Positions 1 through 28,316 of a stretch of 28,564 bases of DNA are shown here, in pieces. The notes beneath the pieces are model-generated. The model did no database searches. It was not told where the DNA came from and saw nothing but the letters and a program-made list of their open reading frames with translations. Numbering within the stretch: position 1 is the stretch's first letter; every line of letters begins with the position of its first letter. A program made the translations under genes and the position numbers. This DNA comes from a virus: positions 1 through 28,564 of the IMG/VR virus record IMGVR_UViG_3300046820_000735; one strand, 5' to 3'.

Positions 1-65
1 CTCACCATGTTCTCGGTAGCGGTAAAGTATAGGCGGTTAACTGCGTTCGTTGTGATCAACTGCAT
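1..65 (-). CDS. Partial copy (first 21 codons) of the 122-aa structural protein gene
   Basis: The minus-strand ATG at 65-63 opens the same reading frame as the complete gene at 27932-28300, and the window edge cuts it after about 21 codons. The sequence is identical to the right-end copy over this stretch. It is part of the terminal overlap and probably not a second gene. Confidence 0.8.
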   Translation of the reverse strand, partial: MQLITTNAVNRLYFTATENMV

Positions 66-81
66 ATTTATATAATGGGAA
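64..81 (-). promoter_or_regulatory. 18-nt repeated motif, copy A
   Basis: The minus strand reads TTCCCATTATATAAATAT, followed by G so that the last two bases plus G form the ATG of the 122-aa gene. It matches copies at 2257-2274, 9124-9141 and 13435-13452 at 15 of 18 positions common to all. It lies about 20 nt downstream of the tail-protein terminator. Function is unknown: promoter, translational signal or mRNA operator. Confidence 0.65.
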
Positions 82-101
82 AAAACGAAAATGTAACGAA
101 T

Positions 102-130
102 AAAAAAAGGGAGCGTAAACGCCCCCCCTT
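102..130 (-). terminator. Intrinsic terminator after the tail tube-like gene
   Basis: On the minus strand a G-rich arm (G run then CG), a TTTA loop and the arm CGCTCCC form a stem of at least 7 bp including one G-U pair, followed by seven T. It lies 24 nt after the stop codon of the 154-645 gene and before the 122-aa/portal unit. The right-end copy at 28337-28364 has one fewer base in the G run and still folds. Confidence 0.85.
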
Positions 131-153
131 CAAAATATGGAAAGTATGTAGGG

Positions 154-645
154 TTAATCCAAAGGTACAGTTCCCGTGAATACAACGATTGGGTCTTTCT
201 CCATGGAAGTAAACGTCAAAGTCATTCCATTCAAATCTCCCATTGCAGTTCCAGTAGCGGAAGTTCCAGTAGTTAAATAAACTCCGTTCTCCAATCCCAT
301 AACCCACTGCGCACCGTTTCTATCGGTAGCAATTACAGCCAATTTAGCCTGAGCCAATAGCTTCAACTGATTGCGAAGTTCAGCGGTCAATTTAGGCAAT
401 ACGATTGAAAGTTCGGTTTGATAAAAGGTAGTTCCATTTTCAACACTCGATGTTACCGTTTCGGTGAATTGAGCCGTGTTCATTGGCAATTCAAACGAAA
501 AGAAACCACCCGTAGCGGTTGAGATAGCACCGTTTGTAACAGCACCGTAATCGACGTCTTCAAAGTTGTCGATGTAAACTTTTTTTAATCCACCAACGCT
601 GTCTTTACAAGCGAGTGAATATCCTGCGGTTAATGCGCAACTCAT
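154..645 (-). CDS. Putative major tail (tube) protein, 163 aa
   Basis: Starts MSCALTAGYSLACKDSVGG, a signature I associate with a very common small structural protein of Bacteroidota phages. The body alternates beta-rich segments (TAQFTETVTSSVENGT, LTAELRNQLKLLAQAKLAVIATDRNG) and ends with GTAMGDLNGMTLTFTSME, a pattern resembling tail-tube proteins that stack into hexameric rings around the tape measure. It lies directly after the major capsid gene, has strong terminators on both sides, and is small as expected for a tube subunit. The tube role comes from family resemblance and context; a head-decoration role is possible. A second C-terminal copy at the right window end differs only at synonymous sites. 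Confidence 0.6.
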   Translation of the reverse strand: MSCALTAGYSLACKDSVGGLKKVYIDNFEDVDYGAVTNGAISTATGGFFSFELPMNTAQFTETVTSSVENGTTFYQTELSIVLPKLTAELRNQLKLLAQAKLAVIATDRNGAQWVMGLENGVYLTTGTSATGTAMGDLNGMTLTFTSMEKDPIVVFTGTVPLD

Positions 646-669
646 ATCTTTATTTTTTTATTTATGTTC

Positions 670-701
670 AAAAAAAAGGGTGGGCGATTTCACCCACCCC
701 T
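670..701 (-). terminator. Strong intrinsic terminator after the major capsid gene
   Basis: Minus-strand GGGTGGGTG, loop AAAT, then CGCCCACCC gives a 9-bp stem with one G-U pair, followed directly by eight T. It sits 24 nt downstream of the capsid stop codon and upstream of the tail tube-like gene, so it may lower expression of what follows or define the 3' end of the capsid message. Confidence 0.9.
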
Positions 702-724
702 TGGTTAATAGTTCAATCGTTCGA

Positions 725-1657
725 TTAAGATGCGGCCATCATGAAACGAGCGCACTGATCAGGGAAAGCGATTTGAACGCCTGCCTTGAACTCAGCAACA
801 AAACGAACTTCATCTGCTTCCTTAGCGTAGAAGATTTCGAAACGCTCTTCTTCGTTCAACAAGTCAGTACCGAAAACAAAGTGTGAAGTACGACCTACGT
901 ACAAATCGTAAGTTCCGTTCAAACCGTTAACACCGTACAACTTGATGTTAGAACCTGGCAAAGTCAATTCATAGTTCTCAACTCCATTCAAGTAAGAAAT
1001 ATTGAAGTAGTTTGAAGCTACCAAACCTTGCTTAATCTTAGTGAATACGTCGATACCACAGAAGATAGCAACGTCGTCGTAACCACGAATATCGTTAGAA
1101 ATTCCAGCCTCGATAGTATTCAAAAGAATAATTGCGTTTGAAGCAGTAGCCAATGAAGCGTAAGTGAAAGAAATAGTATTCAAGTTATTAACGGAAGCAT
1201 CGTTGAAAATCTTTGCGAAACCAGTAATTGAAGCAGGAGAACCTGTACCATCACCTTGCCAAACGGCAGTTTCCAAAGCCTTCTGAATAGAAGCAACCTT
1301 CTGCTCTGCGTAAACTTGCTCGAAAGGAATAGTTGTAGGCATTGAACCCGCAGTTAATTGGGTTTGCATCCAATACTGCTCCAAAGCCTTTGGGCACATT
1401 GCTTCGTGAACCTTCACGTGAACAGCAGTCAAGTTGCGCTGTGTGAAATCGGTAGTGTTTCCTGAACCATTGAAACCACAAGTATTGCCATAAGTGAAGG
1501 CAGTTGTGGTATCCAACAAGTTCAAAGCAGAAACATACTTCACACCAACTTGTTTGTTGATCAAAGAAATGGTGCGTGCGTTGAATAACGACTTAGTAAT
1601 TAGGGGTAGGGTCTGTTGATTAGTATAAGTACTTAACCCTGTAAAAGTGTAACTCAT
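725..1657 (-). CDS. Major capsid protein, HK97-fold type, 310 aa
   Basis: The 310-aa length, the preceding protease and scaffold-like genes, and the content fit a phage major capsid protein. Segments such as KALETAVWQGDGTG (near 127-140), the central YDDVAIFCGIDVFTKIKQGL and the C-terminal VRFVAEFKAGVQIAFPDQ resemble the A-domain and P-domain strands of HK97-like shells that assemble into the icosahedral head. The ATG is 7 nt after the scaffold stop codon. There is no obvious cleaved delta domain, consistent with a separate scaffold gene. A dedicated terminator follows. Assignment rests on length, context and family feel, not on a single diagnostic motif. Confidence 0.8.
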   Translation of the reverse strand: MSYTFTGLSTYTNQQTLPLITKSLFNARTISLINKQVGVKYVSALNLLDTTTAFTYGNTCGFNGSGNTTDFTQRNLTAVHVKVHEAMCPKALEQYWMQTQLTAGSMPTTIPFEQVYAEQKVASIQKALETAVWQGDGTGSPASITGFAKIFNDASVNNLNTISFTYASLATASNAIILLNTIEAGISNDIRGYDDVAIFCGIDVFTKIKQGLVASNYFNISYLNGVENYELTLPGSNIKLYGVNGLNGTYDLYVGRTSHFVFGTDLLNEEERFEIFYAKEADEVRFVAEFKAGVQIAFPDQCARFMMAAS

Positions 1658-1663
1658 TTTTAT

Positions 1664-2242
1664 TTATTTTAATGCGTTTAAAAGATTTGAAAATTTATCG
1701 TTTTGTTTTTCCTTTGGATTCAAATAGGTGAAAGCAACAGGCTTGGAAACCTCGGCAGTTGGACGGCTTGCAACCTCTTCAACAACAGCGCTCATGGCTT
1801 CGGTAGCTTTACCCATTCCATCCATGCGTGTCATCAAATCAGCGATCATACCTTCCAATTTGGTGATGCGCTCGCTCATTGATTCCATTTCCTTGGCATG
1901 GTCGGGCATCATTTCAGCTTCTGCCATTTCCTCTTTGTTTTCGCCTGCTTCGATTTCTACTTCGATCTTTGGCTCTTCTTCAATAGGCATGATTTCAACA
2001 ATCTTACCCGCTTCGGTTTTGATCTTAGCAACACCTACCAATTCGTGCTCTCCATCGGGAGCGGGAACGGCATTACCATCTCCGTCGATTACCATTACCT
2101 CAGCACCTACAACGATTTCACCGTTAATCGATACTTGACCACCACTTGCAAGGTCGTACATGGCGAACTCTTGGGCGGTTGGGGTAACTTCACTCGACAT
2201 CAGATAGCTTTTAATTTTTAGCAATTCAGCTTTAATATCCAT
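1664..2242 (-). CDS. Probable capsid scaffold protein, 192 aa
   Basis: The N-terminal half has a small beta-rich unit (about 30-85) with GGQVSINGEIVVGAEVMVID and PDGEHELVGVAKIKTEAGKI. A Glu/Met-rich segment (about 85-120) follows, then a predicted helix or coiled coil (MSERITKLEGMIADLMTRM) and a charged C-terminus. The acidic, helical, low-complexity make-up between protease and capsid genes is typical of phage scaffolding proteins, which fill the prohead and are degraded or released by the protease. The beta unit is unusual for a pure scaffold and could bind capsid. The gene follows the 18-nt motif copy B, with its ATG 15 nt downstream. Confidence 0.6.
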   Translation of the reverse strand: MDIKAELLKIKSYLMSSEVTPTAQEFAMYDLASGGQVSINGEIVVGAEVMVIDGDGNAVPAPDGEHELVGVAKIKTEAGKIVEIMPIEEEPKIEVEIEAGENKEEMAEAEMMPDHAKEMESMSERITKLEGMIADLMTRMDGMGKATEAMSAVVEEVASRPTAEVSKPVAFTYLNPKEKQNDKFSNLLNALK

Positions 2243-2256
2243 GTGATAAAAGTTTT

Positions 2257-2274
2257 ATACTTATGAAATGGGAA
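2257..2274 (-). promoter_or_regulatory. 18-nt repeated motif, copy B
   Basis: The minus strand reads TTCCCATTTCATAAGTAT in the 55-bp gap between protease and scaffold genes. Here the start codon lies 15 nt downstream instead of at the motif edge, so the motif is not simply conserved because it contains an ATG. Confidence 0.65.
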
Positions 2275-2297
2275 CGTAAAAAAAAGTGACAAAAAAA

Positions 2298-2882
2298 TTA
2301 TAGCATCGAAAGGATTTCGTCAATCAAAATCACTTCCAACGGCAGTTGTTTGGATGCTTGGAAAGGTGCGTGAATGAAATCACCCTCAACGCTGAACCCT
2401 TTGAATGTTCCATCCTTAACTTGATTCCACACGTCTTCATTGTTCACTTTGTACGTTCCAAACCAAGTACCTTCGGGGCAGTCCTCAAAGCCTTTGGGAG
2501 TAACGATACCACGATCAACGTCGGTGATAAACGATTCAATCATAAACACGTCTTTGATCGGTGTTTTGTGTTCAGTGTTGACGTTTGAAATGTACTGATT
2601 TTGCATGAACTTTTCCGCTATCTTTTTAATCGTTTCAGCAGTGTAGGTCACGTAATACTCCCCAAACTTTTCGTCACGTCTGAAAATCATTGAATCGGGA
2701 ATCATTAACGGCCCTGTAACCAACCTTTTCTCTTCGTTCGATGTGAACTTCATGCGATTGTTGAATGCGTGGAAATTACGCTCGATTGCGGGAGCGTTAA
2801 CCAGTGCGACAAAGTCAACACCTGTTGACTCTTCATCGTTTACTACAAGCGAGTAAACGGGTAAATCATTGTAAGTATTCAT
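2298..2882 (-). CDS. Prohead maturation protease, XkdF-like, 194 aa
   Basis: The pattern matches the phage XkdF-type serine protease family: GPLMIPDSMIFRR (57-69), YVTYTAETIKKIAEKFM (77-93), NVNTEHK with His105, ESFITD (116-121), GTWFGTYKVNNEDVW (138-152) and KGFSVEG with Ser164. His105 and Ser164 are the probable catalytic residues of the herpesvirus/HK97-type protease fold. In such phages this enzyme processes scaffold and capsid precursors inside the prohead. The ATG lies 1 nt after the tape-measure stop, with scaffold and capsid genes immediately downstream, as expected. Confidence 0.85.
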   Translation of the reverse strand: MNTYNDLPVYSLVVNDEESTGVDFVALVNAPAIERNFHAFNNRMKFTSNEEKRLVTGPLMIPDSMIFRRDEKFGEYYVTYTAETIKKIAEKFMQNQYISNVNTEHKTPIKDVFMIESFITDVDRGIVTPKGFEDCPEGTWFGTYKVNNEDVWNQVKDGTFKGFSVEGDFIHAPFQASKQLPLEVILIDEILSML

Positions 2883-2883
2883 A

Positions 2884-4998
2884 TTATTTTCCTAAAGTTG
2901 CGGTTCTTTGTAATCTTTGTGAGCGTTTTTGCTTGTCTGAAATATCGGTTTCAAGTACGTAGGTTCTAACTGAACCTTGTTTAAGGTTACCTTGTGCATC
3001 TAATTGTAATTGGGTGCTTCCGATTGTCGGTGTAGTTGTAGCCATTGCAGAAGGGGCGGTTGAAAGGTTAGGCATTGAACCAACTGGACCACCACCGCCA
3101 CCACCTGGCACTTGAACTTTGTTGATTGAACGAACGGTGTTAAATCCATTGATACCGATTGTTGCAGCACTTGCGATTTTTACCGCCGTTCCAAACGGTT
3201 CGGGATACGGGTTCTTTGCTCTTAACACTTCTGAAATACCAAGGTATGTATTAATCAACGCTTGGGCGGTTGCGAGTGCTTTACCCGCTTTTGTTTCCTT
3301 CCCTAACGCATCCGATAAACTACCAAACAAATCAGCAACTCCCTTCGTCAACGCCATCTTTCCTTGAAGTTGTGCGGTGTCCAATTGTTGGGTTGCTTCA
3401 TTATATTGCTTTTCAGTTATCAATCTATTTTTTAAAGCATTGCCTAAAATAGTTTTGATTTGATCATAGCTTTGAGAATAATCTTGACGTTGGATTTCAA
3501 GTTGCGCACGTTGTTGTTCTAATTGTTTATCCCCAATTTCCTTTTTCTTTAATGCGATTTGATCTTCTATTTCAACCGTTGATTTGCCGTACTGCTTTTG
3601 AATTTTAAGAAGTCCCTCTAATTTCTGTAACTCTAATTCCTCAGTACTTTGTCCATTTAACTTTGCGTTGTTTATTAAATGGTCGTAGTAAGCATCGTTT
3701 GATTTGATACTATCATTGTAATTCTTTTCCTCTTTTTCCTTTTTTTCCTTTGCTTGATCTTCTTCCCATTTAGCTTCATATTCACGTAATTTTTCTAATT
3801 CTTCACGTGCTTTTTTATCTGCTTCTTGTTTCTTTTTTACAGCATCTTCACTTTTTTTCCTATCCTCTTCATCTAACTTTTGAATTTCCAATTTGAAGCC
3901 CGCTTGTTCGTTGGTTATTTTGTCAAGTGACTTTTGTAGTTCCTCTTCAGTTTTCTTACCTTTCTTGGCAACTTCTTCGGGGTCGAAAATTGTTTCGGCA
4001 AGCAGTTGGTCAAAGCTTGAAAGGTTTAATTTAAAGTCAATATCAGCACCAAAAAAGTTAGCCGTTTTTATCAATCCGTTAATCAACCCGTCAACCATTA
4101 ATGTAATGGCTTTAATAGGGCTGAAAAGTGCCATAATAACACCTTTGGCAATTTCTTGATTACGTTTCGCAGCTTCAACCGCTTGCTTCGTGGCCGTTTG
4201 TTGGCCTTTGATTTGGTTCTTTATGCCAATGATAATCGCATCGGTTTCTTTAATCTTAATGTTTAAGATTTCACGTTGCGACTTTCCTTGTAATTTGAGA
4301 ACATTCTCGGTGTCCTTGGTTAAATTGTATTTCTTTTCTGCTTCCTCGGTATCTTTCTTGGCCGTTTCAATGTACTTTTCAGTTTCTTGCGATACCCCAC
4401 CAATCGCCTCTTTAAGGTCATCCCAATACGCTACAAGCGTACCAATCAAAACAATGATAGCACCGATACCCGTAGCAATTAACGCACGGGAAAATCCTTT
4501 GGTAGCGTTGGTTGCTATGTTTGTCGCTACGGCATTTTCCTTTTGTGCCTTACCCAAAAACATCAACGAAAACGCACTATCTTTTTGAAGGATATTTGTG
4601 ATAGCCGTTACCCCTTGAAGCAATGCCATTGCACCTTGCGTCTTTTTGATTGCTTCCTCAACCGCTTTATTTTCGGTACCAAACAAAGCCATCGCACCTT
4701 GTGCAGCTGCGAAACCGCCAGCAATACCTTGCGCACCTTGGGCGAACGCATCTAACTTGAACGTATCGGATGATAAGGCCTTAATCGCATTCTTGGTATC
4801 ACCGATTTGGTCTTTAACCTCCCCTGCTCTTTGTTGTAGTTTCCTAAAAGCTTCTGAACCCGTTTGCCCCGAAGAGGCCATTTTGTTCAACTCGTTTTCA
4901 ATCGAGCGAAGTTCCTGCTTTAAGTTCTTGAATTGCCCCGTGGCTTGGTCGGTTTCCGACTTAACTCGTAATACTATATCCTTTTCTACGTCTGCCAT
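2884..4998 (-). CDS. Tail tape measure protein, 704 aa
   Basis: A long helical protein with an N-terminal coiled-coil region (KNLKQELRSIENELNKM), an Ala/Gly-rich stretch, a hydrophobic segment near 170-190 (LIATGIGAIIVLIGTLVAYW) and a second near 290. A very charged Lys/Glu coiled coil (EADKKAREELEKLREYEAKW) follows, and the C-terminus holds a Gly tract (VPGGGGGG). Such proteins set tail length and are ejected with the DNA. At about 0.15 nm per residue, 704 aa implies a tail near 105 nm, a medium siphovirus. The start overlaps the preceding stop as TAATG. Protease and capsid genes follow it, which is not the usual order. Confidence 0.88.
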   Translation of the reverse strand: MADVEKDIVLRVKSETDQATGQFKNLKQELRSIENELNKMASSGQTGSEAFRKLQQRAGEVKDQIGDTKNAIKALSSDTFKLDAFAQGAQGIAGGFAAAQGAMALFGTENKAVEEAIKKTQGAMALLQGVTAITNILQKDSAFSLMFLGKAQKENAVATNIATNATKGFSRALIATGIGAIIVLIGTLVAYWDDLKEAIGGVSQETEKYIETAKKDTEEAEKKYNLTKDTENVLKLQGKSQREILNIKIKETDAIIIGIKNQIKGQQTATKQAVEAAKRNQEIAKGVIMALFSPIKAITLMVDGLINGLIKTANFFGADIDFKLNLSSFDQLLAETIFDPEEVAKKGKKTEEELQKSLDKITNEQAGFKLEIQKLDEEDRKKSEDAVKKKQEADKKAREELEKLREYEAKWEEDQAKEKKEKEEKNYNDSIKSNDAYYDHLINNAKLNGQSTEELELQKLEGLLKIQKQYGKSTVEIEDQIALKKKEIGDKQLEQQRAQLEIQRQDYSQSYDQIKTILGNALKNRLITEKQYNEATQQLDTAQLQGKMALTKGVADLFGSLSDALGKETKAGKALATAQALINTYLGISEVLRAKNPYPEPFGTAVKIASAATIGINGFNTVRSINKVQVPGGGGGGPVGSMPNLSTAPSAMATTTPTIGSTQLQLDAQGNLKQGSVRTYVLETDISDKQKRSQRLQRTATLGK

Positions 4999-7199
4999 TA
5001 CTCTGTGATTAATTGTGGTTTAGGTTCGTCTGAAATAAATGCACCCGTACCGCTCGTTAACTCAAACACGGTAGGGGTAAATGGTGCTAAATCTAACACC
5101 TTCAAAAGTTCGATTGAGGTACTTTCGTCGCTATTTGCATCGTAATCGTTGACCGATAGCAAGTAAAACAAAGTACCGTTAATGTAAATCGGTTTGCGAA
5201 AATCAAGGTTCAACACATCAACGGGAGTAAGTTGCACAAATAACTTGACTTTCTTTGCGTCTTTGTCGGTGTATAGCTTTACGTAATCCAACCAAAAGCG
5301 GTTGAATAGGTTGTTGTTGGTGTACCTATAAATCGCTCCGCTTGTTTCATCGCTTTGATAGTACAACTCCCGTGGAATACCAAAGCATAAATCGGTTGTC
5401 GGGTTGTACGGATTGTCTAAATTACCCGCATAAGGGTAACTTGTGTATTGGTTACCCTCGAAAACAAATTCCGTATCACTTGGAAACGGTATAAACTCAT
5501 GGTAAAGAATACGAAGGTTAGGGGTAACAGGCTTAACGTCGAACGTAACATCGCCACCAACGGCACTTCCTTTGTTATCCATGTCATAATAGCGTGCGTA
5601 AATACGTGGGCTCGGAGAAAATCCAACCATTACGCTATTGCCAAATCCAACGTCCTCAGATTGCTCACCATTGCTAAATTCATTTGAACTAACGTACAAC
5701 CGTGAACCGTAACTCGATTGATACGCACTTTGGTAACGCTTCTCAAAGTAACCGCCTGCATCCTTGTAATTGAACTTGTAAGTTTTAGGATTCATGTACC
5801 CACATGGAACTACCTCAAAGCCTTTGTCAACATCCCATAACGGAGTCCAGTCAAGAAAGTTCGAAGTATCGTAAAAGTCGGAGAACGGCTCGATATACAA
5901 TTTCTTTTGATCGTACTTATCCGGCATGATAAACAAGTTGAACATACGCACCAAGTACATAAGGAAATCGGATTGCTTAACCTTTGGTACTATCGTTTGG
6001 TTCATGTCCCAAGTATCACCAGGTTCCATTTTAGGAGTACCGGCAACTTGGTTAAGCCAATACGTGTTCGAGCTGTCAACGTTGATTGTAAAACCAATCG
6101 AACCACCGGTGTATCTTATTTCGTACTGATCACCAACACTCGCTGTATCTTGAATGAAAAAATCTTGAGTAATCGTGGTGTTTGCTGGTGTGTTAACATC
6201 CCAAAGAACTACCATGTTAGAACCAACACTAATACCATTTTTGTAAAGATTACAAGTCAAAGGTACTTGCTGAGAAGGTCCAGTACTTTGAACCAAGGTA
6301 GCTGTAACCCTTAATTGAAAGTTGTATGTGCGATCAGCCGGTGCAACAAATTTCTTGGTGCCGGTGTTGTAGTTTCCACCGTTGAAATAAGGCGCTGGTG
6401 TTGAAGTACCAAATTGAAATTGAGTAAGAAAAATTAAGTTATTGAGCGTCAAATCACTATTCAATCGAATCCAAAACAAATTGTTTTGTGCTTGCTCTTG
6501 GGTAATGTAAGGCACACCACTAACGCCATAAGGCACGATCAACTGCTTAAACCATTGCGAGGTAAGGAAGTCACTAACGTAAGTAAATCCAGCACCGCCA
6601 ATAATCTTATCAACGTACTTTTTTACGGAAATCGCAGGGTAAAAATCAGCCGTGGTAAACACATCCGCGTAAGGAATTGGGGCTTGTGTACGTGTGAAAC
6701 TCGCTTGCCCGTAATCGATCGCAGGGTAATAGTAATCGTTACCCGTACTGCCTACGGAATTTGTCCACGCATCCACAATATTAGGCGCATCCCATTCATG
6801 ATTCAACTCGCTAAAATCTAAATCAGTCAACTCGCTATCGCCTAATTGCTTAAACAAGTTGACATTCTCACCGTACAAACCGATTTCATACGTCTTAAAT
6901 TGACCGTCACTCTTAACCGCCAATAATTGCGCAATGCCGTTGAACACTTCAACACCATTCTGCAATACGTAAGCATTTACCCGAACGCTCGGATCAAATC
7001 CAATTACCCACTGATCGAATCGGTAAATCGAACCAAACACATTATCGTTGTTTGGTGTGCCAGGAATTTCAATGGTTCTGCTAACCGTTCCTTTGCGCTC
7101 TACGGGGTTTTCTATATCCGTTATGGAATACGTTAAGCGGATATCAATATCATCGCTTAAATCCAATCTTTGCCCGTCAATGTAAAGTTCTGTTATCAT
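4998..7199 (-). CDS. Tail tip / baseplate hub-like structural protein, 733 aa
   Basis: The N-terminus (MITELYIDGQRLDLSDDIDI, then ENPVERKGTVSRTIEIPGT and NVFGSIY) is a hallmark I associate with a large tail protein family of Bacteroidota phages. The next 100 residues (VRVNAYVLQNGVEVFNGIAQL, YEIGLYGENVNLFKQLGD) look like a hub or distal-tail beta barrel. A long beta-rich centre and a C-terminal part (KVKLFVQLTPVDVLNLDFRKPIYINGTLFYLLSVNDYD) resembling late-control or hub domains follow. It overlaps the upstream gene as ATGA and abuts the tape measure gene. Role in the tail tip is inferred from position and fold-like pattern; no enzymatic motif is visible. Confidence 0.65.
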   Translation of the reverse strand: MITELYIDGQRLDLSDDIDIRLTYSITDIENPVERKGTVSRTIEIPGTPNNDNVFGSIYRFDQWVIGFDPSVRVNAYVLQNGVEVFNGIAQLLAVKSDGQFKTYEIGLYGENVNLFKQLGDSELTDLDFSELNHEWDAPNIVDAWTNSVGSTGNDYYYPAIDYGQASFTRTQAPIPYADVFTTADFYPAISVKKYVDKIIGGAGFTYVSDFLTSQWFKQLIVPYGVSGVPYITQEQAQNNLFWIRLNSDLTLNNLIFLTQFQFGTSTPAPYFNGGNYNTGTKKFVAPADRTYNFQLRVTATLVQSTGPSQQVPLTCNLYKNGISVGSNMVVLWDVNTPANTTITQDFFIQDTASVGDQYEIRYTGGSIGFTINVDSSNTYWLNQVAGTPKMEPGDTWDMNQTIVPKVKQSDFLMYLVRMFNLFIMPDKYDQKKLYIEPFSDFYDTSNFLDWTPLWDVDKGFEVVPCGYMNPKTYKFNYKDAGGYFEKRYQSAYQSSYGSRLYVSSNEFSNGEQSEDVGFGNSVMVGFSPSPRIYARYYDMDNKGSAVGGDVTFDVKPVTPNLRILYHEFIPFPSDTEFVFEGNQYTSYPYAGNLDNPYNPTTDLCFGIPRELYYQSDETSGAIYRYTNNNLFNRFWLDYVKLYTDKDAKKVKLFVQLTPVDVLNLDFRKPIYINGTLFYLLSVNDYDANSDESTSIELLKVLDLAPFTPTVFELTSGTGAFISDEPKPQLITE

Positions 7200-8524
7200 A
7201 ACGGCATCGCTTCGTCAAAGGTAAATTTGTAGGTAATGGTAAGCGTGTGAAGTTGGTCAAAGTCACGCTTCCAAACATTGTAGCTTGTATCGGTTACCAA
7301 AATAGGGACTAAGTATTCAACAACACCTTCATCGGTCTGAAATGCTTTACGTAACCAAAGACGTGGGGAGCGCACCATTTCAGCTAACCATTCAAATTCT
7401 GCATCGGTTAACCAATCACTTGAAACCGTGAACTCTTTATTGTAATCAACTTGTGCGTTGTACTTGGAAAAGTTAGTGTAACCTCCGTAAATCCCCGTGT
7501 AATTTACAAAGCTATCTGCTAAATACGGACGGCTCGCTTCAACTCTTTGAATGCTTTGCCTTTCTCGGTTAGGCTTGGTGAACACGTAACTATCAACCCC
7601 ACCCAACTGGTTCTCAAAATGAACCTCGGTAAAGTCGTATCGTGGGCACTCATCGCTTAACCGTACAACGTATTCAATAGTTGCTTGGTTAATTCCTTCA
7701 TCTTGAAAGCCAGTAACAGTATAGTAACCCGTGCCAAGGATATTCGGCGAAACAGGAAAATCAACATCGCCACTTTCAGAATCACTTGTTAAAGTTGAAC
7801 TTAAATTGCGCACATCAAAAGGCATGAATGGAACGGCAATCATGTTGAACTCGTTTTCCTCGCTCGATGCGTGTGACGTGTGATTGATCGTTGGCACGTA
7901 ATACTCCCGAATCAACGCATTCTCGGAATTGTAATATTGGTATCTTATGTAATCAATATTTGGTTCAAGTTCTTTACTGCAAAGGAAATAAAGATTTCCG
8001 CTTTGGTTGTACGTTACCGAAGCAACTGCTTTCGTTGATTGTGGGCGGTTGGTTAATGGTAATTTAAAATTTACCGCATCGCTATCAACCCAATAGTTAA
8101 TCTTAAAATTAGGGAACTGAACAAAGTCAAAAACAGTCCATGCACCGTTGTAAATGATAGCCGTCTCCGCATCGGTTGGAGCAGAACTTCCACCCGTGTA
8201 CTCTTCATCAAATTCAACGTCGAACTCAATGTATTGAGTAGGGCATCCAAAGCTTTCAGAAACTACAATTGAACCATCTGCAATGCGTGGGGTAACTTCA
8301 AAGTAACCTCGCACAATTTCTTGAAAATTAAAGCGTCCGTAGTTGCTATTCGTCACGCTCGGTACCGTCTTCAATTTCGCTACCAAGTTTCCATTTATCG
8401 AAACATTTGCAACGTATCGGAAGTTCGGCTCGGTGCTATTATCACTATCAACCACATACACCAACGGGTTTCCCGCCGGTGAATACCTTGGTTCAGTTAC
8501 TTGGGTTATAATCGTTATTGCCAT
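7196..8524 (-). CDS. Tail tip / distal tail-associated structural protein, 442 aa
   Basis: Beta-rich protein without signal peptide or catalytic motif. The C-terminal third has a pattern I know from Bacteroidota phage tail proteins: DFTEVHFENQLGGVDSYVFT, SSDWLTDAEFEWLAEMVRSP, then VPILVTDTSYNVWKRDFDQL. It lies between the tail-completion and hub-like genes and is coupled to the latter by ATGA, so the two probably assemble together at the tail tip. Precise function is unknown; a receptor-binding or baseplate role would fit. Confidence 0.6.
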   Translation of the reverse strand: MAITIITQVTEPRYSPAGNPLVYVVDSDNSTEPNFRYVANVSINGNLVAKLKTVPSVTNSNYGRFNFQEIVRGYFEVTPRIADGSIVVSESFGCPTQYIEFDVEFDEEYTGGSSAPTDAETAIIYNGAWTVFDFVQFPNFKINYWVDSDAVNFKLPLTNRPQSTKAVASVTYNQSGNLYFLCSKELEPNIDYIRYQYYNSENALIREYYVPTINHTSHASSEENEFNMIAVPFMPFDVRNLSSTLTSDSESGDVDFPVSPNILGTGYYTVTGFQDEGINQATIEYVVRLSDECPRYDFTEVHFENQLGGVDSYVFTKPNRERQSIQRVEASRPYLADSFVNYTGIYGGYTNFSKYNAQVDYNKEFTVSSDWLTDAEFEWLAEMVRSPRLWLRKAFQTDEGVVEYLVPILVTDTSYNVWKRDFDQLHTLTITYKFTFDEAMPL

Positions 8525-8525
8525 A

Positions 8526-9125
8526 TCATTTGGGTAATTTCATCGTTCTTGGTGCATCTTTCGGTAAAAGAACTGAAACAAATGCTTCTGCTGAAATATC
8601 AGCAACCCTTTGCGCCAAATCATTTAATCTATTTTCAGTAAGTGTTGGTTGAACAAATGGGTAAGGATATGTTCCATTTTTCCAAATTAATTTTCTCACA
8701 AATTTTGCAAAAGTATATACATCTTTTTTTCCGTATCTTAAACCCTTTGCCTGAGTCCATTTTACCATATCCTCCAAACGCGGGTACTCTTTAATTGTAA
8801 ATGGAGAATTAGGCGCTTTTCTACTACTTTCGGTTCCCTTTTGACCAAATTCTAAAAATTTCCAGTAATCCGCCCCTACAATTTGAACTTCATAATTTTT
8901 GCCAAAACGCTTCATTGGCAATGGATCCATGCTCATTTGAAGGTTTCCCGTAGCTTGACTTCCGTTATCATAAATTTGTTTCCTAAATAATATGATTTGT
9001 TCATGACACCAATCAACTATTTCCTTTTCAACACCTTCAAAAGCTTGATCAACGTCGGTAGTACCAAACCCTTCAATAGCACTATTGAATGCTCCGCTTA
9101 CATCTTGAAACTTGATAAATGCCAT
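8526..9125 (-). CDS. Tail completion / head-tail joining protein, HK97 gp10-like, 199 aa
   Basis: The order of elements matches the HK97 gp10-like family: ATGNLQMS (about 58-65), YWKFLEFGQKGTESSRKAP (about 87-105), PFTIKEYP, a central helix DMVKWTQAKGLRYG, and a C-terminal KNGTYPYPFVQPTL. Members act at the head-tail interface or the tail end during assembly. The gene begins at motif copy C and ends 1 nt before the next start. The only alternative start is far downstream, so the ATG at 9125 is accepted. Confidence 0.7.
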   Translation of the reverse strand: MAFIKFQDVSGAFNSAIEGFGTTDVDQAFEGVEKEIVDWCHEQIILFRKQIYDNGSQATGNLQMSMDPLPMKRFGKNYEVQIVGADYWKFLEFGQKGTESSRKAPNSPFTIKEYPRLEDMVKWTQAKGLRYGKKDVYTFAKFVRKLIWKNGTYPYPFVQPTLTENRLNDLAQRVADISAEAFVSVLLPKDAPRTMKLPK

Positions 9126-9141
9126 ACTTATTAAATGGGAA
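9124..9141 (-). promoter_or_regulatory. 18-nt repeated motif, copy C
   Basis: The minus strand reads TTCCCATTTAATAAGTAT, completed by G to give the ATG of the tail-completion gene. It fills the 27-bp gap after the frameshifted chaperone gene, where most neighbouring genes overlap. Confidence 0.65.
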
Positions 9142-9152
9142 ATCCTAAAAAG

Positions 9153-9913
9153 TTACCCATTGGCTCGACGCTTAATTTCAAAGGCTTCATGCTTGCTTTT
9201 CTCAACTTGGTAACTTGCATAGTTAAGAAACTCCATCGCTGGCAATTCAAAGACTTCACTCCATTTGAGAACATCGCTCCCCGCTAACCTATCAATTACA
9301 ACGATCCAACCGTATCGCTCGGTAAATCCTGTTCCGAGGTCAGGGCGTCCATCTCCTCCTTCAACGTCTGTATTTCCCGATCCAAATAGGTTGGTAAATC
9401 TTCGAGCAACTTCACCCAACTGGCCAAAAAAAAAGCGGACAACCCCAATGCCTCAACTGCTAACATCTTTTCTTTCACCACTAACGCACGCTTTGCATGG
9501 TCTTTCCCGTTGTACTTTTTAGGAAACCAACCGAACTTCGTTTCACGCAATAACGATGCAACGCACAAATGTAAGTTCTTTACTCCGTCCTCTTTCGTCT
9601 TATTCCACTCGCTAATTTCAACGAATTGAGCGGTGTTAATTTCGTCAAAGAATCGGGTAACGTAGTAACGCTTACCGTCAATCTTTACGAATGATTTGAA
9701 AGGTTTAAACGGCTCTTTCTCCAACTGCTTTGCGATGGCTTCGTATCGCTTCCGTAAATCAATTAACGGGTAATTATCCACCTCATCGAAACCGTTACCC
9801 TCAACGATTGCTACTACCGAGCGCATATACTCCCACCCTTCCAAGTGGTTGAGGTCGGCTAATAGTTGGTATTGACCAACGGTTAATTTTTTCCAAATGT
9901 TATTGTATCGCAT
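9153..9913 (-). CDS. Tail assembly chaperone, -1 frameshift fusion product (about 253 aa)
   Basis: Ribosomes that slip -1 on the T9 run at 9434-9426 would leave the 205-aa frame after residue 162. They would then read TTT GGC CAG into a second frame that stays open to 9153, adding Gly-Gln plus 88 residues (LGEVARRFTNLFGSG onward to RRANG). The second frame has no convincing start of its own, only a TTG at 9419, and overlaps the first by 124 nt. This matches the lambda G/GT arrangement, where the longer product bridges the tape measure and tail tube protein. The second part carries a Gly-rich linker and a helical C-terminus (FLNYASYQVEKSKHEAFEIK). Confidence 0.8.
9296..9913 (-). CDS. Tail assembly chaperone, unshifted product, 205 aa
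   Basis: A mainly helical cytoplasmic protein (MRYNNIWKKLTVGQYQLLAD at the start; SLLRETKFGWFPKKYNGKDH near 120-140). By analogy with lambda gpG it would coat the tape measure during tail assembly and be absent from virions. Terminating in frame at 9296 gives this form, expected to be the abundant one. The start overlaps the terminase stop by 14 nt. The N-terminal pattern resembles small tail proteins of Bacteroidota phages, but the assignment relies mostly on the frameshift architecture. Confidence 0.75.
   Translation of the reverse strand: MRYNNIWKKLTVGQYQLLADLNHLEGWEYMRSVVAIVEGNGFDEVDNYPLIDLRKRYEAIAKQLEKEPFKPFKSFVKIDGKRYYVTRFFDEINTAQFVEISEWNKTKEDGVKNLHLCVASLLRETKFGWFPKKYNGKDHAKRALVVKEKMLAVEALGLSAFFLASWVKLLEDLPTYLDREIQTLKEEMDALTSEQDLPSDTVGSL
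9426..9434 (-). promoter_or_regulatory. Programmed -1 ribosomal frameshift slippery site
   Basis: Nine consecutive T on the minus strand, in frame as GCT TTT TTT TTG. The heptamer T TTT TTT lets both P-site and A-site tRNAs re-pair after a -1 slip. It lies just upstream of the overlap between the two chaperone frames. I did not find a clear downstream pseudoknot by eye. Confidence 0.75.
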
Positions 9914-11057
9914 ATTTTCCTCTGTTCTTTTCTGCTAATTTATTTAATGCTAAATACCTCAAAGCATCCATGCCGTGATTGAATGAATCGATAGGTACGT
10001 TGGTGGCGTTCCCGTCCTTTTCCTTCCATTTGTAAGCATTCAATTCTTTGAGTATGTTGGTTGATCGGTTTGTTACGTTTATCCTGAATCGCTTTAAAAT
10101 ATCAATCCCATTCAAGATACTATCTTTCCCCTTATTTGCTCCTTCAATGCGCCAACCCATGCGACGGATTTCTTCAATACTTTTCGGTTCAGCGGAATCC
10201 GCCACAATGGTAACGCTTCTATCTATACCCGATTGCGTAAAGAATAAACTAATGTCTTGATTTGTATACCCTTTGTGATACATTACCTCGTCAATGATTA
10301 ACTCACCATTGTATCGGTACACTCCAACAACTGCGGTCGGGTCGTTGGTAAATCCGAAGTCCAGGCCGTACCCAATCAACTGCGCATCGCTTGGAATCGT
10401 TCCAATCGTGCCCCAATTACGGTAAATCAATCCCTCGATTTTACCAGTCATTCCACGGGCGTACACCTTCCAAAGTTCCTCATCCTCACTTCTAATCGCT
10501 TCAATCTTTTTGCGAATGATATCGGGTAAAAATGGGTTATGTCGGTGGTCGGAAATGATCAACTCAACACCTTCCTTACCTATCAATTTATCATGCACCC
10601 AAAAGCGAGCGTTAGGGTTGTAGTCGATAAACACTTTCTTTTTTGTACGCATTGCAAGCTCGGAGTATATTTCATAACTAATCCCGTTCGCCTCATTCAA
10701 AAAGAAATAGTCACGTTTACCACTCTTTGCATCCTGGGAATCTTGGTAGCTTTTAAACTCTATGATTGAACCGTTGTGAAACGTATAAATACGGTCGCTC
10801 GCATTGTATCCTTTTATCCAACTTTGAATATCAGGCGAACTTGCTACAATCGTTTGCATATCCCGAAGCGCACCGCTTTTAAGGTTAGGCACGTCTTGAC
10901 CTACAACCGAAATAACCTGATCATTTTCTCCAATCGCTTTTAAGCATAGCACTTGAAGTATCGAGTAAGTTTTGCCCGAACTGGTCCCGCCTTGGTTAAC
11001 AATAACCTCGGCAGTTGAATTGTAGTTGCGATCGAATATGACAGACGTTTGAAACAT
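9900..11057 (-). CDS. terL: Terminase large subunit, PBSX-type, 385 aa
   Basis: ATPase domain with Walker A GGTSSGKT (23-30) and Walker B YFFLNEAN (117-124). The C-terminal RNase H-like nuclease has acidic residues at Asp233 (GLDFGFTNDPTA), Asp287 (VADSAEP) and Asp364 (HGMDALRY). It translocates DNA into the prohead and cuts the concatemer. I chose the ATG at 11057, which overlaps the small-subunit stop as TGATG; the in-frame TTG just upstream is less likely. The 385-aa length is typical. The gene is followed by the tail chaperone instead of the portal, an unusual neighbour. Confidence 0.95.
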   Translation of the reverse strand: MFQTSVIFDRNYNSTAEVIVNQGGTSSGKTYSILQVLCLKAIGENDQVISVVGQDVPNLKSGALRDMQTIVASSPDIQSWIKGYNASDRIYTFHNGSIIEFKSYQDSQDAKSGKRDYFFLNEANGISYEIYSELAMRTKKKVFIDYNPNARFWVHDKLIGKEGVELIISDHRHNPFLPDIIRKKIEAIRSEDEELWKVYARGMTGKIEGLIYRNWGTIGTIPSDAQLIGYGLDFGFTNDPTAVVGVYRYNGELIIDEVMYHKGYTNQDISLFFTQSGIDRSVTIVADSAEPKSIEEIRRMGWRIEGANKGKDSILNGIDILKRFRINVTNRSTNILKELNAYKWKEKDGNATNVPIDSFNHGMDALRYLALNKLAEKNRGKYAIQ

Positions 11058-11497
11058 CAATCGAGAATAATTGCATCCTCACTATTTGATAGGTCGATAG
11101 GACTTGAAATGGTGGCCACGTGAATTTCGGCTTTCGGCATCGATATCGTACTATCAATCGTTTCCTTTGGCTTACCATAAACACGATCGAAAAGAACTTC
11201 CATCAAGTGAATAGAACCTCGGCTCAAATCCCGCTCCATCTTTTTAGAAATCATCTTCAACCAAAAGGGTACATCGTCACGTTCTCCAAGTTCACTGATT
11301 TGTCGCTCGGTCATGCAAAGCATTGCCATAATCATTTCATTGGCTTGGCTACTCGATAGCTGAACGTTAAACTCTTCAATGAATAGGTCCTTGATTACGT
11401 TACGCAATGCCTTCGGCCTTCCATTCCGATTGATGTTTTCGGGATGGCTTCCAAATCCGTGTGGGCTTTTGCCCTTCAAATGTTCACCGCTTGGCAT
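11057..11497 (-). CDS. Probable terminase small subunit, 146 aa
   Basis: Directly upstream of and translationally coupled to the large subunit. The basic Gly/Asn-rich N-terminus (GFGSHPENINRNGRPKALR) is typical of small DNA-binding terminase proteins and DUF5681-like proteins. A helical central part contains LCMTERQISELGERDDVPF, which could form an oligomerization core, and SIHLMEVLFDRVYGKPKE follows. It would recognise the packaging site. Homology is by pattern; position is the strongest support. Confidence 0.75.
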   Translation of the reverse strand: MPSGEHLKGKSPHGFGSHPENINRNGRPKALRNVIKDLFIEEFNVQLSSSQANEMIMAMLCMTERQISELGERDDVPFWLKMISKKMERDLSRGSIHLMEVLFDRVYGKPKETIDSTISMPKAEIHVATISSPIDLSNSEDAIILD

Positions 11498-11691
11498 TAG
11501 ATTTCTATTTTGTTAACGATTTCTTTTAGCTTCTGCATACACATAAGCTTTAATTCGTAATCGGTAGCACCGCCAACGCTCACATGGTCCACCGTTTCGG
11601 CTATATCCATAAGCAAGTGAGCAATGGTTGCGTACAACTCAACCGCTCCAATAGCCTGTTCAATTACGTCGTTTTCTTTTGTCGTGGTCAT
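11497..11691 (-). CDS. Small helical protein of unknown function, 64 aa
   Basis: An acidic, mostly helical small protein (VIEQAIGAVELYATIAHLLMDIAE) with no recognised motif. It overlaps its upstream neighbour as ATGA and the small terminase gene as TAATG, so it is clearly within the packaging operon. No function can be assigned. Confidence 0.7.
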   Translation of the reverse strand: MTTTKENDVIEQAIGAVELYATIAHLLMDIAETVDHVSVGGATDYELKLMCMQKLKEIVNKIEI

Positions 11692-12140
11692 TTTTCTAAC
11701 TCCTTCAACTTCGCTTCACTCCAACGTAACCCAGCTAAACCGCCCCAAAGAAGGTAGGAAATGTATCCGCAATCAGTAGGCTTTCCCGTTTCATAGTACG
11801 TCTTTGCACGGCTCAAATAAGAGTACATCCGTTTGATTGTGGACACACTCAAAGGCTCACCGTCACGCAACTGCGTTGCACGAATTTTTCCCACCTGCGT
11901 TGCGCACTGATTACCGTTCTTTTCGTTCAGTTCAATCCCTCGTTTGGCATTGTTTTTCACCGCTTCGGGGTAGTCGGAATGGCTTTCAAACTTTGCGTAA
12001 CTTTCCTTTCGGCTCAAAGCATTACACACCGCTAACCGTTGGATTGGGTCTTCATACTCCGTTTTCATGACTGTATTAATCATGCAACGGTCTAAGAACT
12101 CACTTTTGCTTTCGTCTTGGTTTCTTTTCGGTAGTGGCAT
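11688..12140 (-). CDS. Phage protein with stand-alone 'YLLWGG' domain, 150 aa
   Basis: Two recognisable parts. The N-terminus (PLPKRNQDESKSEFLDRCM, then DPIQRLAVCNALSR) resembles a short module often seen at the front of phage capsid-maturation or structural proteins. The rest (NAKRGIELNEKNGNQCATQ, VGKIRATQLRDGEPLSVSTI, KRMYSYLSRA, CGYISYLLWGGLAGLRW) resembles a conserved phage domain ending in a WGG motif that I recall as frequently fused to prohead proteases or DNA-handling proteins. Here it stands alone near the terminase genes, far from the protease. Molecular function is unknown. Confidence 0.65.
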   Translation of the reverse strand: MPLPKRNQDESKSEFLDRCMINTVMKTEYEDPIQRLAVCNALSRKESYAKFESHSDYPEAVKNNAKRGIELNEKNGNQCATQVGKIRATQLRDGEPLSVSTIKRMYSYLSRAKTYYETGKPTDCGYISYLLWGGLAGLRWSEAKLKELEK

Positions 12141-12462
12141 TGGTTGGTTGTTTAGTGTTCACAATTTCGGTCGGTTCACTTTCCGTGAACGTTTCTTGAA
12201 TAAGTTGCTCATGGATTGCTTTATGCCTACGGTCAAGTTCTGCATCGTAATGGTTCATGATCGTAGAGAATGCGTTAACGGTACAGGCTTGGCATCCACC
12301 CGTCCAACGTTTACCCATAACTTCACTCCATACCCCACCCATTAACATTACTTGTTCAGCACTTAGGCGTAAGGTCTTTTCGTTTTGAAACTGCACCCAT
12401 TTAGGGTACAATGGTTCTAACCGCTTCAACTGTTCGTCGGTCATTCTATTAGCTATTTTCAT
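12100..12462 (-). CDS. Unknown protein with Cys pair and basic tail, 120 aa
   Basis: The N-terminus is helical (MKIANRMTDEQLKRLEPLYP). The motif GCQACTVNAFSTIMNHYD carries two Cys spaced C-x2-C, and a low-complexity basic tail ends KKPRRKQK. It overlaps the next gene by 41 nt in another frame. The motif resembles small phage proteins found near sigma-like genes in Bacteroidota phages, but I cannot name a function. Confidence 0.65.
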   Translation of the reverse strand: MKIANRMTDEQLKRLEPLYPKWVQFQNEKTLRLSAEQVMLMGGVWSEVMGKRWTGGCQACTVNAFSTIMNHYDAELDRRHKAIHEQLIQETFTESEPTEIVNTKQPTNATTEKKPRRKQK

Positions 12463-12640
12463 ATTTTTGCATTTCTCGTTTAAGGTAATAAAACGCTTTT
12501 TCTAAATCCTCTAAGGTATCGCCTTTGCGCCCAGCACGGCTTACGTACTTCACCACGTTGCCGAGGTTAAAGTTTAAATCGAACGCTTCGATCAGCTCAA
12601 TCGGTTGCACCTTTTGTTTGTAATGGTTTGGTGTGGTCAT
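12449..12640 (-). CDS. DUF3310 family protein, 63 aa
   Basis: HYKQKVQPIELIEAFDLNFNLGNVVKYVSRAGRK, written here in pieces as HY, then FNLGNVVKYVSRAGRK, then DLEKAFYYLKREM, fits DUF3310 (SaV-type) closely, a short protein widespread in phages and sometimes appended to nucleotide-metabolism enzymes. Biochemical role is unestablished. The start overlaps the upstream stop as ATGA. Confidence 0.85.
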   Translation of the reverse strand: MTTPNHYKQKVQPIELIEAFDLNFNLGNVVKYVSRAGRKGDTLEDLEKAFYYLKREMQKYENS

Positions 12641-12927
12641 CGGTAAATCCTATCAATTAAAAAGTACGCAATGATACAAGCTACGAAACCGCAACCAATC
12701 GAATAAACCAAAAGGTTTGCAATTAAGATACCTATATTTTGGTAATATCCTATCAATGAAAAATCAACCGTTGTAAAAAACGAAAGCGATGCAGTCCAAA
12801 AAGAAAGACATACAAAACAGTTGAACGGCTTGAATCCAATCTTATCGCCAATGCCCGTAAGCTTGGTAATCGTTACCCCCGCACACGCAGAGAAAAACGC
12901 TATGAATAAAATTTGTAAGTAAATCAT
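12637..12927 (-). CDS. Small integral membrane protein with CxxC motif, 96 aa
   Basis: Hydrophobic segments near 2-20, 40-60 and 65-90 predict three membrane spans. A conserved-looking loop motif FKPFNCFVCLSFWTASL places Cys-x2-Cys before the second span, similar to small phage membrane proteins of Bacteroidota. It overlaps both neighbours as ATGA. Function is unknown; a role in lysis or superinfection exclusion is possible but has no direct support. Confidence 0.65.
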   Translation of the reverse strand: MIYLQILFIAFFSACAGVTITKLTGIGDKIGFKPFNCFVCLSFWTASLSFFTTVDFSLIGYYQNIGILIANLLVYSIGCGFVACIIAYFLIDRIYR

Positions 12928-13436
12928 TTCAATTTCTTTTTTAATTTGTCTTTAACCGTGTTAATGGTCAATCTTATGCTGTTATATGGTATCGTAGTCG
13001 ATGTGCTGATACGTCGCATGTTTTTGGCTTCAACGTAAACCATGAATAGGTTGCGCTCGTACCAATGCAGTTCGGCAATCGCTTCCTCAATCGCTTCCAT
13101 TTGCTTCGATGTTTGTACCTCGCTTTCATGATCGTAGATTTCAGCGATCACTTCAACACGAGTCCAATCAACGTCCACACGTAACAACCGATCTCGGTAC
13201 TTCTGATCCCACAACGAACCCTTCCCCAAAAATAAACGGTAGATAAGTGATAGCACGTACCACCGATGACCGCCCGAATGCCACACCTCCCACAACTTTG
13301 CATCCTCTTTTTCGAGTAACGCTAAAAGCATTTCTTGGTAAAGGTCTTCACCGTCGAAGTGCGTACCCCTCACAATATCGTAACAGGACTTACGATAGCT
13401 TTGATGTTGGAGTACGTCTGCGATTAGTGGGTGCAT
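12924..13436 (-). CDS. Sigma-70-like (sigma factor-like) protein, 170 aa
   Basis: I choose the ATG at 13436 directly after motif copy D, giving MHPLIADVLQ; an in-frame upstream start would overlap the previous gene. The early part (FDGEDLYQEMLLALLEKE) resembles sigma region 2. The C-terminal part (MEAIEEAIAELHWYERNLFMVY, RRISTSTTIPYNSIRLTINTVK, basic end) resembles a region 4 helix-turn-helix. Such proteins are common in Bacteroidota phages and could direct host RNA polymerase to phage promoters, possibly late genes. Activity is not proven: the region 2 aromatic promoter-melting residues are not clearly visible. Confidence 0.55.
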   Translation of the reverse strand: MHPLIADVLQHQSYRKSCYDIVRGTHFDGEDLYQEMLLALLEKEDAKLWEVWHSGGHRWYVLSLIYRLFLGKGSLWDQKYRDRLLRVDVDWTRVEVIAEIYDHESEVQTSKQMEAIEEAIAELHWYERNLFMVYVEAKNMRRISTSTTIPYNSIRLTINTVKDKLKKKLK

Positions 13437-13452
13437 ACTTATTGAATGGGAA
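13435..13452 (-). promoter_or_regulatory. 18-nt repeated motif, copy D
   Basis: The minus strand reads TTCCCATTCAATAAGTAT, completed by G to form the ATG of the sigma-like gene. It sits right after the stop codon of the upstream gene (13456) and decides the start choice for the sigma-like protein. Confidence 0.65.
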
Positions 13453-13455
13453 TTT

Positions 13456-13734
13456 TTAGAAAGGTAACCCGTCTTTATCGGGTACAAATCCTGCCTTGGT
13501 TAGTGCTGGGTGTATTTCGATGTTTGAAGCCTGTTGAATCGGTGCATCTTTCGCCTTCCATTTTACCCAATGCGTTGCTTTGCTCTTTTGGTCAACCTCT
13601 TTGCGTTGCCCTACAAACACCTCGATATCCCCGTATTGGTTGGTGGGTAAATCTAACAAATCTTGTTTTTTCAGTTGAACCTTTACCCCGTACTGGTTAG
13701 CCCAACCTTTGCCTACATACTTTTCGTTTTCCAT
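13456..13734 (-). CDS. Unknown small protein (VGKGW type), 92 aa
   Basis: I choose the ATG at 13734 (MENEKYVGKGWANQYGVKVQ), 4 nt after the phosphoesterase stop; the longer frame would intrude into that gene. The sequence YGDIEVFVGQRKEVDQKSKA followed by THWVKWK is a compact beta pattern seen in small Bacteroidota phage proteins encoded near replication or recombination genes. It could be a nucleic-acid-binding beta barrel, but I see no decisive motif. Confidence 0.7.
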   Translation of the reverse strand: MENEKYVGKGWANQYGVKVQLKKQDLLDLPTNQYGDIEVFVGQRKEVDQKSKATHWVKWKAKDAPIQQASNIEIHPALTKAGFVPDKDGLPF

Positions 13735-13738
13735 ATTT

Positions 13739-15751: not shown

Positions 15752-15781
15752 CAAAGATAGTAATGAAATCGAATTGTGCAA
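15752..15781 (-). promoter_or_regulatory. Extended Bacteroidota-type promoter (third shared-type promoter)
   Basis: Minus-strand -33 element TTG (15781-15779), 19-nt spacer, and -7 element TATCTTTG (15759-15752). The spacer carries CACAATT and TTTCAT, also found in the promoters at 20855-20884 and 22355-22384. It lies upstream of the 78-aa gene and probably drives the DUF1064-phosphoesterase-sigma-terminase unit. Confidence 0.85.
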
Positions 15782-20854: not shown

Positions 20855-20884
20855 CAAATATACAAATGAAAGTTAATTGTGCAA
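20855..20884 (-). promoter_or_regulatory. Extended Bacteroidota-type promoter for the ERF unit
   Basis: Minus-strand TTG (20884-20882), 19-nt spacer with CACAATT and TTTCAT, then TATATTTG (20862-20855). The expected start of transcription is about 10-13 nt ahead of the ERF ATG. It shares spacer sequence with the promoters at 15752-15781 and 22355-22384. Confidence 0.88.
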
Positions 20885-22354: not shown

Positions 22355-22384
22355 CAAAGATACACATGAAATTTAATTGTGCAA
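22355..22384 (-). promoter_or_regulatory. Extended Bacteroidota-type promoter for the first early-type unit
   Basis: Minus-strand TTG (22384-22382), 19-nt spacer with CACAATT and TTTCAT, then TATCTTTG (22362-22355). Downstream it shares GTAATACCAAA with the 15752-15781 promoter. It lies about 40 nt after the late-unit terminator and about 40-45 nt before the first ATG at 22316. Confidence 0.88.
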
Positions 22385-28300: not shown

Positions 28301-28316
28301 ATTTATATAATGGGAA
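28299..28316 (-). promoter_or_regulatory. 18-nt repeated motif, copy A' (terminal duplicate of copy A)
   Basis: Identical to copy A at 64-81, because it lies in the terminal repeat. It overlaps the start of the 122-aa gene that heads the portal unit. Confidence 0.65.

Follow-up and report, generated by a model that had tools for sequence, protein, structure and literature searches.

In phages phiEco32 and 7-11, a phage-encoded sigma factor redirects the host RNA polymerase, and the late promoters of the two phages lie at similar positions and differ in sequence with the sigma factor: gp47 of 7-11 reads the bipartite GTAAtg-(16)-aCTA and gp36 of phiEco32 a single element. The authors of that work predicted further phage sigma-promoter pairs (PMC8948821). 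Here we analysed a stretch of viral DNA of 28,564 nt (IMG/VR record IMGVR_UViG_3300046820_000735, positions 1 to 28,564, hereafter called the window) in which an 18-nt motif had been noticed at four gene starts, one of them the start of a sigma-like gene. The 18-mer is very probably the downstream half of a late promoter that would be read by the host RNA polymerase with a phage sigma factor resembling the extracytoplasmic function (ECF) type, giving mostly leaderless late mRNAs.

Results

The four copies of the motif given in the original prediction (81-64, 2274-2257, 9141-9124 and 13452-13435) were all found, lie on the minus strand, which carries the late genes, and agree at 15 of 18 positions as claimed, the differences being two N positions and one A/G. 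The genes assigned to them, i.e. a small gene before the portal gene, the scaffold/capsid genes, the tail-completion gene and the sigma-like gene, held as well. When the window was scanned with up to 3 mismatches allowed, 5 matches were obtained against 0.49 expected and 0 of 100 dinucleotide shuffles gave 5; the fifth match (28316-28299) is the first site again, seen in the terminal overlap of the window. The motif also recurred at the same gene starts in dozens of related contigs.

Overlooked until now was that every copy in the window is preceded by GTTAC, GTAAC or GTCAC, with 10-11 nt between this block and TTCCC. The full element is bipartite, GTNAC-N10/11-NNCCCATTNNATAARTA, with constant spacing and with the 18-mer as its downstream half, and a repeat finder run on the window returned a family of 36 nt, not of 18 nt. 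Predicted promoter copy 1 (64-97; all copies on the minus strand) consists of GTTAC at 97-93 and TTCCCATTATATAAATAT at 81-64, has its predicted +1 at 65 on the A of the ATG and precedes the small pre-portal gene; in the terminal overlap it is found at 28299-28332, where the gene 28300-27932 begins on the A of the motif. Copy 2 (2257-2290), before the scaffold/capsid genes, consists of GTCAC at 2290-2286 and TTCCCATTTCATAAGTAT at 2274-2257, with a predicted +1 at 2258 followed by a 16-nt leader and the ATG at 2242. Copy 3 (9124-9156), before the tail-completion gene, has GTAAC at 9156-9152, TTCCCATTTAATAAGTAT at 9141-9124 and a predicted +1 at 9125, and copy 4 (13435-13468), before the sigma-like gene, has GTTAC at 13468-13464, TTCCCATTCAATAAGTAT at 13452-13435 and a predicted +1 at 13436, the A of the ATG in both cases. 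The copies had been placed in true intergenic gaps, which is only partly so, since at the tail-completion and sigma sites GTNAC overlaps the 3' ends of the open reading frames (ORFs) 9153-9419 and 13456-13776.

The pooled consensus of 41 distinct variants obtained from related contigs was GttAc.tTTtt.....ttCCCATT..ATAAgT/A, where the stroke precedes the final A. From the G of GTNAC to this A the distance was 31 nt at every tail-completion site and 32 nt at every site of the other three kinds (sigma, pre-portal and scaffold), and the stretch between GTNAC-TTT and CCCATT was free to vary (e.g. TTTTTAGGAT versus TTTTTTGATT). Two conserved blocks that are kept at a fixed distance by a variable spacer correspond to the layout of a -35/-10 promoter. 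If the final A is taken as +1, GTNAC begins at -32 (-32 to -28; -31 at tail completion) and CCCATT, or CATT, falls over the -10 region with its A at -11. The predicted +1 would then be the A of the ATG in the pre-portal, tail-completion and sigma genes and would lie 16 nt before the ATG in the scaffold gene.

The N-termini of the proteins (MHPL/MHPV, MQL/MQI and MA) are kept across all four sigma types described below although the upstream DNA differs, and this indicated that the start codons are genuine. The mRNA must therefore contain this ATG, which makes a +1 further downstream, as in a T4-like reading of ATAARTAT, untenable; for the three genes whose ATG carries the predicted +1, leaderless initiation would be the simplest reading of these sequences. 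A promoter had been among the options of the original prediction, with the objection that transcription would begin inside three of the genes. The promoter is supported by the present results, and the objection, which arose because ATAARTAT was taken as the -10 box as in T4 TATAAATA, falls once +1 is placed on the A of the ATG.

A translational element beside the start codon, either an enhancer or an RNA-binding site, might also be considered, given that the motif abuts the ATG at 3 of 4 sites and that initiation in flavobacteria relies on A-rich bases immediately before the start (PMC6847099). This is very unlikely. The motif stands well before the scaffold ATG in all relatives seen, 1 extra base separates the motif from the ATG in relative L133, and at the scaffold site of other relatives the sequence directly 3' of the final A is changed. 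The motif is therefore not bound to the start codon and is, as had been proposed, more than a start-codon context. In addition, GTNAC is located 28-32 nt upstream with fixed spacing and partly inside the preceding genes, the motif type switches with the sigma-like gene (see below), and no Rfam family was matched.

The gene behind copy 4 (12924-13436, minus strand) encodes a sigma-like protein of 170 aa with domains sigma2 and sigma4, which we propose as the reader of the motif based on a PHROG match, a structural model and a type-for-type match with the promoters. Among 18 family members 9 matched phrog_1740 (RNA polymerase sigma factor), with a best E-value of 7.9e-7 and a value of 6.8e-4 for the window copy, whereas Pfam Sigma70_r2 matched just 2 family members (E = 0.01); a profile search of the PDB matched SigW (E = 0.037). 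In the AlphaFold model (pLDDT 78) there are helices at 3-80 and 103-169 and a disordered stretch at 84-99, that is, sigma2 and sigma4 with a short linker and without sigma1.1 and sigma3, as in ECF-type sigma factors. The top PDB fold matches of the model were the ECF sigmas SigL, AlgU, SigH, SigW and sigmaE, and the C-terminal domain fits region 4 of sigmaE bound to -35 DNA (template-modelling (TM) score 0.72-0.76, 1.6-1.7 Å, about 61 residues). No match was obtained when the type A and type B sigma proteins were searched against 50,697 phage records with tblastn, and a scan of viral contigs with the L158 sigma alone matched only L158 itself. A search of genome contigs with the sigma protein gave a single match, to a contig of a Crocinitomicaceae metagenome-assembled genome (MAG) at 22% identity, and this distant match hints at a Flavobacteriales host.

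A search with TerL returned many contigs at 86-98% identity, some of which encode a sigma-like protein just 34-36% identical to that of the window. In the latter contigs (type B, the window being type A) the three homologous late starts carry GTNACWTTTT-N-TTGTAATWCTATKGWT/A; the shared motif GTNAC..TTGTAATWCTATKGWTA replaces the type A motif, with GTNAC retained. The spacing (31 for tail completion, 32 for the two other starts) is that of type A, and a leader is again found solely at the scaffold gene. Type B starts do not carry the type A motif, nor do type A genomes contain the type B motif. Type A motifs that were apparent in type B loci (15-mer, 1 mismatch) turned out, in the loci inspected, to be matches elsewhere, mostly within one coding sequence. 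Two further types were each represented by a single genome: type D (G001, sigma 42%) shows TCTGCATTNNATWWTT/A at these three starts and a fourth copy before the operon containing its sigma gene, and in type C (G002, sigma 34%) the element, TGTGCATTKGTWW, is weaker and GTNAC is missing. The A, B and D motifs were also recovered when upstream regions were searched without guidance.

The co-occurrence of sigma and promoter types was counted in those contig groups in which the sigma gene as well as a late start could be typed, using only sites anchored at gene starts. Type A sigma was accompanied by motif A at 33/33 sites and type B sigma by motif B at 9/9 (42/42 co-located), although contigs of the same type are related and the 42 sites represent about 3 independent switches. 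The neighbours of the sigma gene are close in the type B contigs (TerL 89-90%, a 94-aa gene 73-80% and a metallophosphoesterase-like gene 78-97%), and the sigma gene itself has been swapped between conserved neighbours.

The two halves of the promoter could be compared separately with the two domains of the protein. For sigma domain 2 the identities were 59% for A-D, 52% for C-D, 41% for A-C and 34-36% for B versus all others, and A, C and D, but not B, have CATT in common in the -10 block. For domain 4, A and B are 45% identical (67-71% in the recognition-helix stretch) and both use GTNAC, A and D are about 33% identical and GTNAC is found at 2/4 type D sites, and A and C are 26% identical (32% in the recognition helix) and type C is without GTNAC. 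The -35 element thus seems to follow domain 4 and the -10 element domain 2, as expected of a sigma factor whose domains 4 and 2 contact these two elements; with four types this is a pattern, not proof.

These comparisons bear on the possibility that an alternative sigma factor of the host reads the late promoter, or that a different phage protein activates it, and that the sigma-like gene only travels with it. Flavobacteria own ECF and sigma54 factors (PMC9723704), and the 96-aa gene adjoining the sigma gene is also diverged (40%), so that some room is left for such an explanation. We nevertheless consider it unlikely, since the -10 block switches only with a sigma-like gene of the other type while the neighbours are similar, and since the -35 and -10 similarities track sigma4 and sigma2 separately.

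Mosaic genomes were also informative. In G003, with a type B sigma, the tail proteins are 85% and 88% identical to those of the window, yet the B motif precedes that unit, and in G008, with a type A sigma (81%), the tail proteins are just 70% and 47% identical, yet the motif is A. Behind the type A motif of L035, L106 and G008 there is a tail-completion gene only 43-44% identical to that of the window. Taken together, this indicated that the motif follows the sigma gene and not the downstream gene.

The exchange of the tail-completion gene for the 43-44% version was observed in L035, L068, L106 and G008, in each case directly after an unchanged promoter, and the junction between promoter and ATG therefore seems to be a frequent module border. 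That different genes follow the same motif shows that exchange occurs here, and the motif could accordingly be thought of as a recombination boundary or module junction. We regard this as highly improbable: the 3-4 copies within a genome are alike yet differ between sigma types, which homology at junctions would not maintain, the spacing to the A or the ATG is exact, and mosaic phages are expected to exchange genes next to a promoter. Neither this nor the translational enhancer or RNA-regulator target that had also been suggested explains a joint switch at unlinked genes with the sigma-like gene.

The ATAAGTA(+1) end of the motif recalls the yeast mitochondrial promoter ATATAAGTA. This short resemblance, together with a +1 at the end of the motif, would suit the promoter of a single-subunit (T7- or mitochondria-like) phage RNA polymerase, a reading whose likelihood we put close to nil. 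There is no ORF of more than 733 aa in the 28.6-kb window and the large ORFs are structural, the ATAARTA/ATAAGTA part is replaced in types B, C and D, and a -35-like element is present. A PF00940 search also gave nothing, but the controls were equally silent.

When IMG/VR was searched with a 19-mer, 89 matching stretches were found versus 8 for the reversed pattern, and about 30 of the 89 were unrelated, being chance or other-phage matches. In one unrelated phage group of about 13 contigs (L012, L018, L036, L043, L050 and others), TTCCCATTTCATAAATATG precedes a gene starting MALT(E/A)KKKAFA and has a GGAGG-like site 3' of it; this looks like a chance match, though a recurrent one. TerL relatives at 52-61% identity lack the motif, a scan with the type A matrix giving nothing convincing in them; the informative relatives were those in which TerL is close and the sigma factor diverged. 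In the more distant G009 (L237/L238; sigma 25%, GC 51%), DCCA-N12/13-TGTGATWTA was found at oriented positions 334, 7101 and 9429, ahead of the scaffold, pre-portal-position and tail genes, the distance to the gene start being exactly 14 nt each time, and it is probably a fifth sigma-promoter pair, again adjoining the ATG. In G010 (L235, sigma 22%), GTATATTT[AC] was seen by eye 14-16 nt before three structural starts (oriented 9050, 9652 and 11978). The 9-mer GTATATTT is present four more times elsewhere in G010, where an unguided motif search returned only CAA-rich repeats, and these candidates, which we do not claim as sites, are possibly a sixth pair or host-like promoters. Both motifs come from one genome each.

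All genes and promoters described in the following are on the minus strand. The small gene that opens the portal unit (27932-28300, 122 aa) has no confident family match. The scaffold-like gene (1664-2242, 192 aa) was assigned from its position before the capsid gene 1657-725 and a weak head-scaffolding PHROG match (E = 0.055), and the tail-completion or neck gene (8526-9125, 199 aa) matched phrog_5 (E = 1.3e-3). A terminator-like hairpin at 104-131 is located directly upstream of copy 1, with the same layout in relatives. The portal-like protein (25977-27935) contains a winged-helix segment, a DNA-binding type of domain (HTH_24, E = 1.8e-6, residues ~497-537), ahead of a C-terminal extension.

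Promoters of the Bacteroidota host type, for which the consensus is TTG-N19-TAnnTTTG (PMC6847099), were predicted at 22355-22384 before an early gene, at 20855-20884 before the ERF recombinase gene and at 15752-15781 before the operon running into the sigma-like gene. The three are near-identical (TTGCACAATT..TTTCAT..TATCTTTG). A common promoter in several copies before the late genes and host-type promoters before the early genes is the arrangement of the phiEco32/7-11 systems. From the host-type promoters and the one distant MAG match, the host is inferred to belong to the Bacteroidota, probably the Flavobacteriales.

Window positions 1-330 are repeated at 28236-28564 with about 97% identity, so that the contig wraps. 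This overlap of about 330 bp (97%) was seen despite the record being classed as linear, and relatives G001, G005, G008 and G010 have exact overlaps of 87-123 bp between their contig ends. The overlapping ends suggest circular or circularly permuted genomes and, in the window, a mixture of strains in the assembly.

Discussion

In the circuit that we propose, the host polymerase would make the first sigma protein by read-through from the host-type promoter at about 15.78 kb. Domain 4 of this protein would read GTNAC and domain 2 the CCCATT region, and RNA would start on the last A of the motif, giving leaderless mRNAs at three of the four sites and a 16-nt leader on the scaffold mRNA. The sigma factor could then amplify its own gene through its own copy of the motif and turn on the genes from tail completion onward, the scaffold/capsid genes and, beyond the hairpin at 131-104, the pre-portal/portal unit.

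Several observations speak against this interpretation. A Pfam search of the sigma-like protein of the window gave no match and the sequence matches to sigma families are only weak; similarly, the Foldseek E-values were 2.5e-3 at best and the full-length TM scores mostly below 0.4, the low whole-length scores being attributable to the uncertain orientation of the domains in the model. The unguided search missed the type C motif, whose match count was close to that of shuffles, with weak sites from one genome. The relatedness of same-type contigs further reduces the weight of the 42 sites. For an ECF promoter it is unusual that ATAARTA is conserved at -6 to +1, and in the flavobacteria studied only a minority of mRNAs are leaderless (5.5% in F. 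psychrophilum; PMC9723704).

On balance, and with only slightly more confidence than doubt, we regard the group as carrying at least 4, possibly 5 or 6, diverged sigma-promoter pairs that are switched in concert, with RNA starting on the start codon and with the -35 element paired to domain 4 and the -10 element to domain 2, i.e. a modular leaderless set that is possibly non-cross-reacting. This phage group appears to supply a series of predicted pairs in genomes whose gene content is close enough to pair each part of the protein with a part of the promoter. The system would explain the control of late genes in a group of Bacteroidota phages for which our literature searches found no promoter study, it would allow programmed leaderless mRNAs to be tested in a phylum that lacks Shine-Dalgarno signals, and it offers candidate orthogonal promoters for Bacteroidota.

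The late promoters of T4 (TATAAATA, gp55) have no -35 element and need gp33 and the gp45 clamp. T4 resembles the present system in using a phage sigma-like protein and an A/T-rich element for late transcription, and the original prediction had pointed to this likeness. It proved superficial: GTNAC is conserved as a -35-like element at -32/-31, ATAARTA lies at -6 to +1 and not at -10, and this part is replaced in the other sigma types. The -35 element and the position of ATAARTA exclude the T4 late promoter family.

The protein has the two-domain size of cellular ECF sigma factors (SigW, sigmaE, SigH and SigL) and is predicted to have their fold, and AC is present in the -35 element of both. 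It differs from them in that the window copy has no Pfam match and no anti-sigma gene was seen, and the -10 element does not resemble the CGT box found in ECF promoters of flavobacteria (PMC9723704). The sigma-A promoters of Bacteroidota (TTTG / TAnnTTTG) are found in the same phage before early genes, and the late motif matches neither of their elements.

As in phiEco32 and 7-11, the positions of the late promoters are kept and their sequence depends on the sigma factor carried, and the sigma gene would be fed first by early read-through and then by its own late promoter, as has been proposed there too. In layout, GTNACW-(17)-WCTA of type B is close to GTAAtg-(16)-aCTA of 7-11. However, phiEco32 and 7-11 are larger enterobacterial phages whose sigma factors were independently acquired (about 15% similarity), whereas the uncultured phages described here are small tailed phages of the Bacteroidota type that carry diverged forms of one sigma factor, four motif types and a predicted RNA start on the ATG. 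We consider the system to be a new variant on the phiEco32/7-11 precedent.

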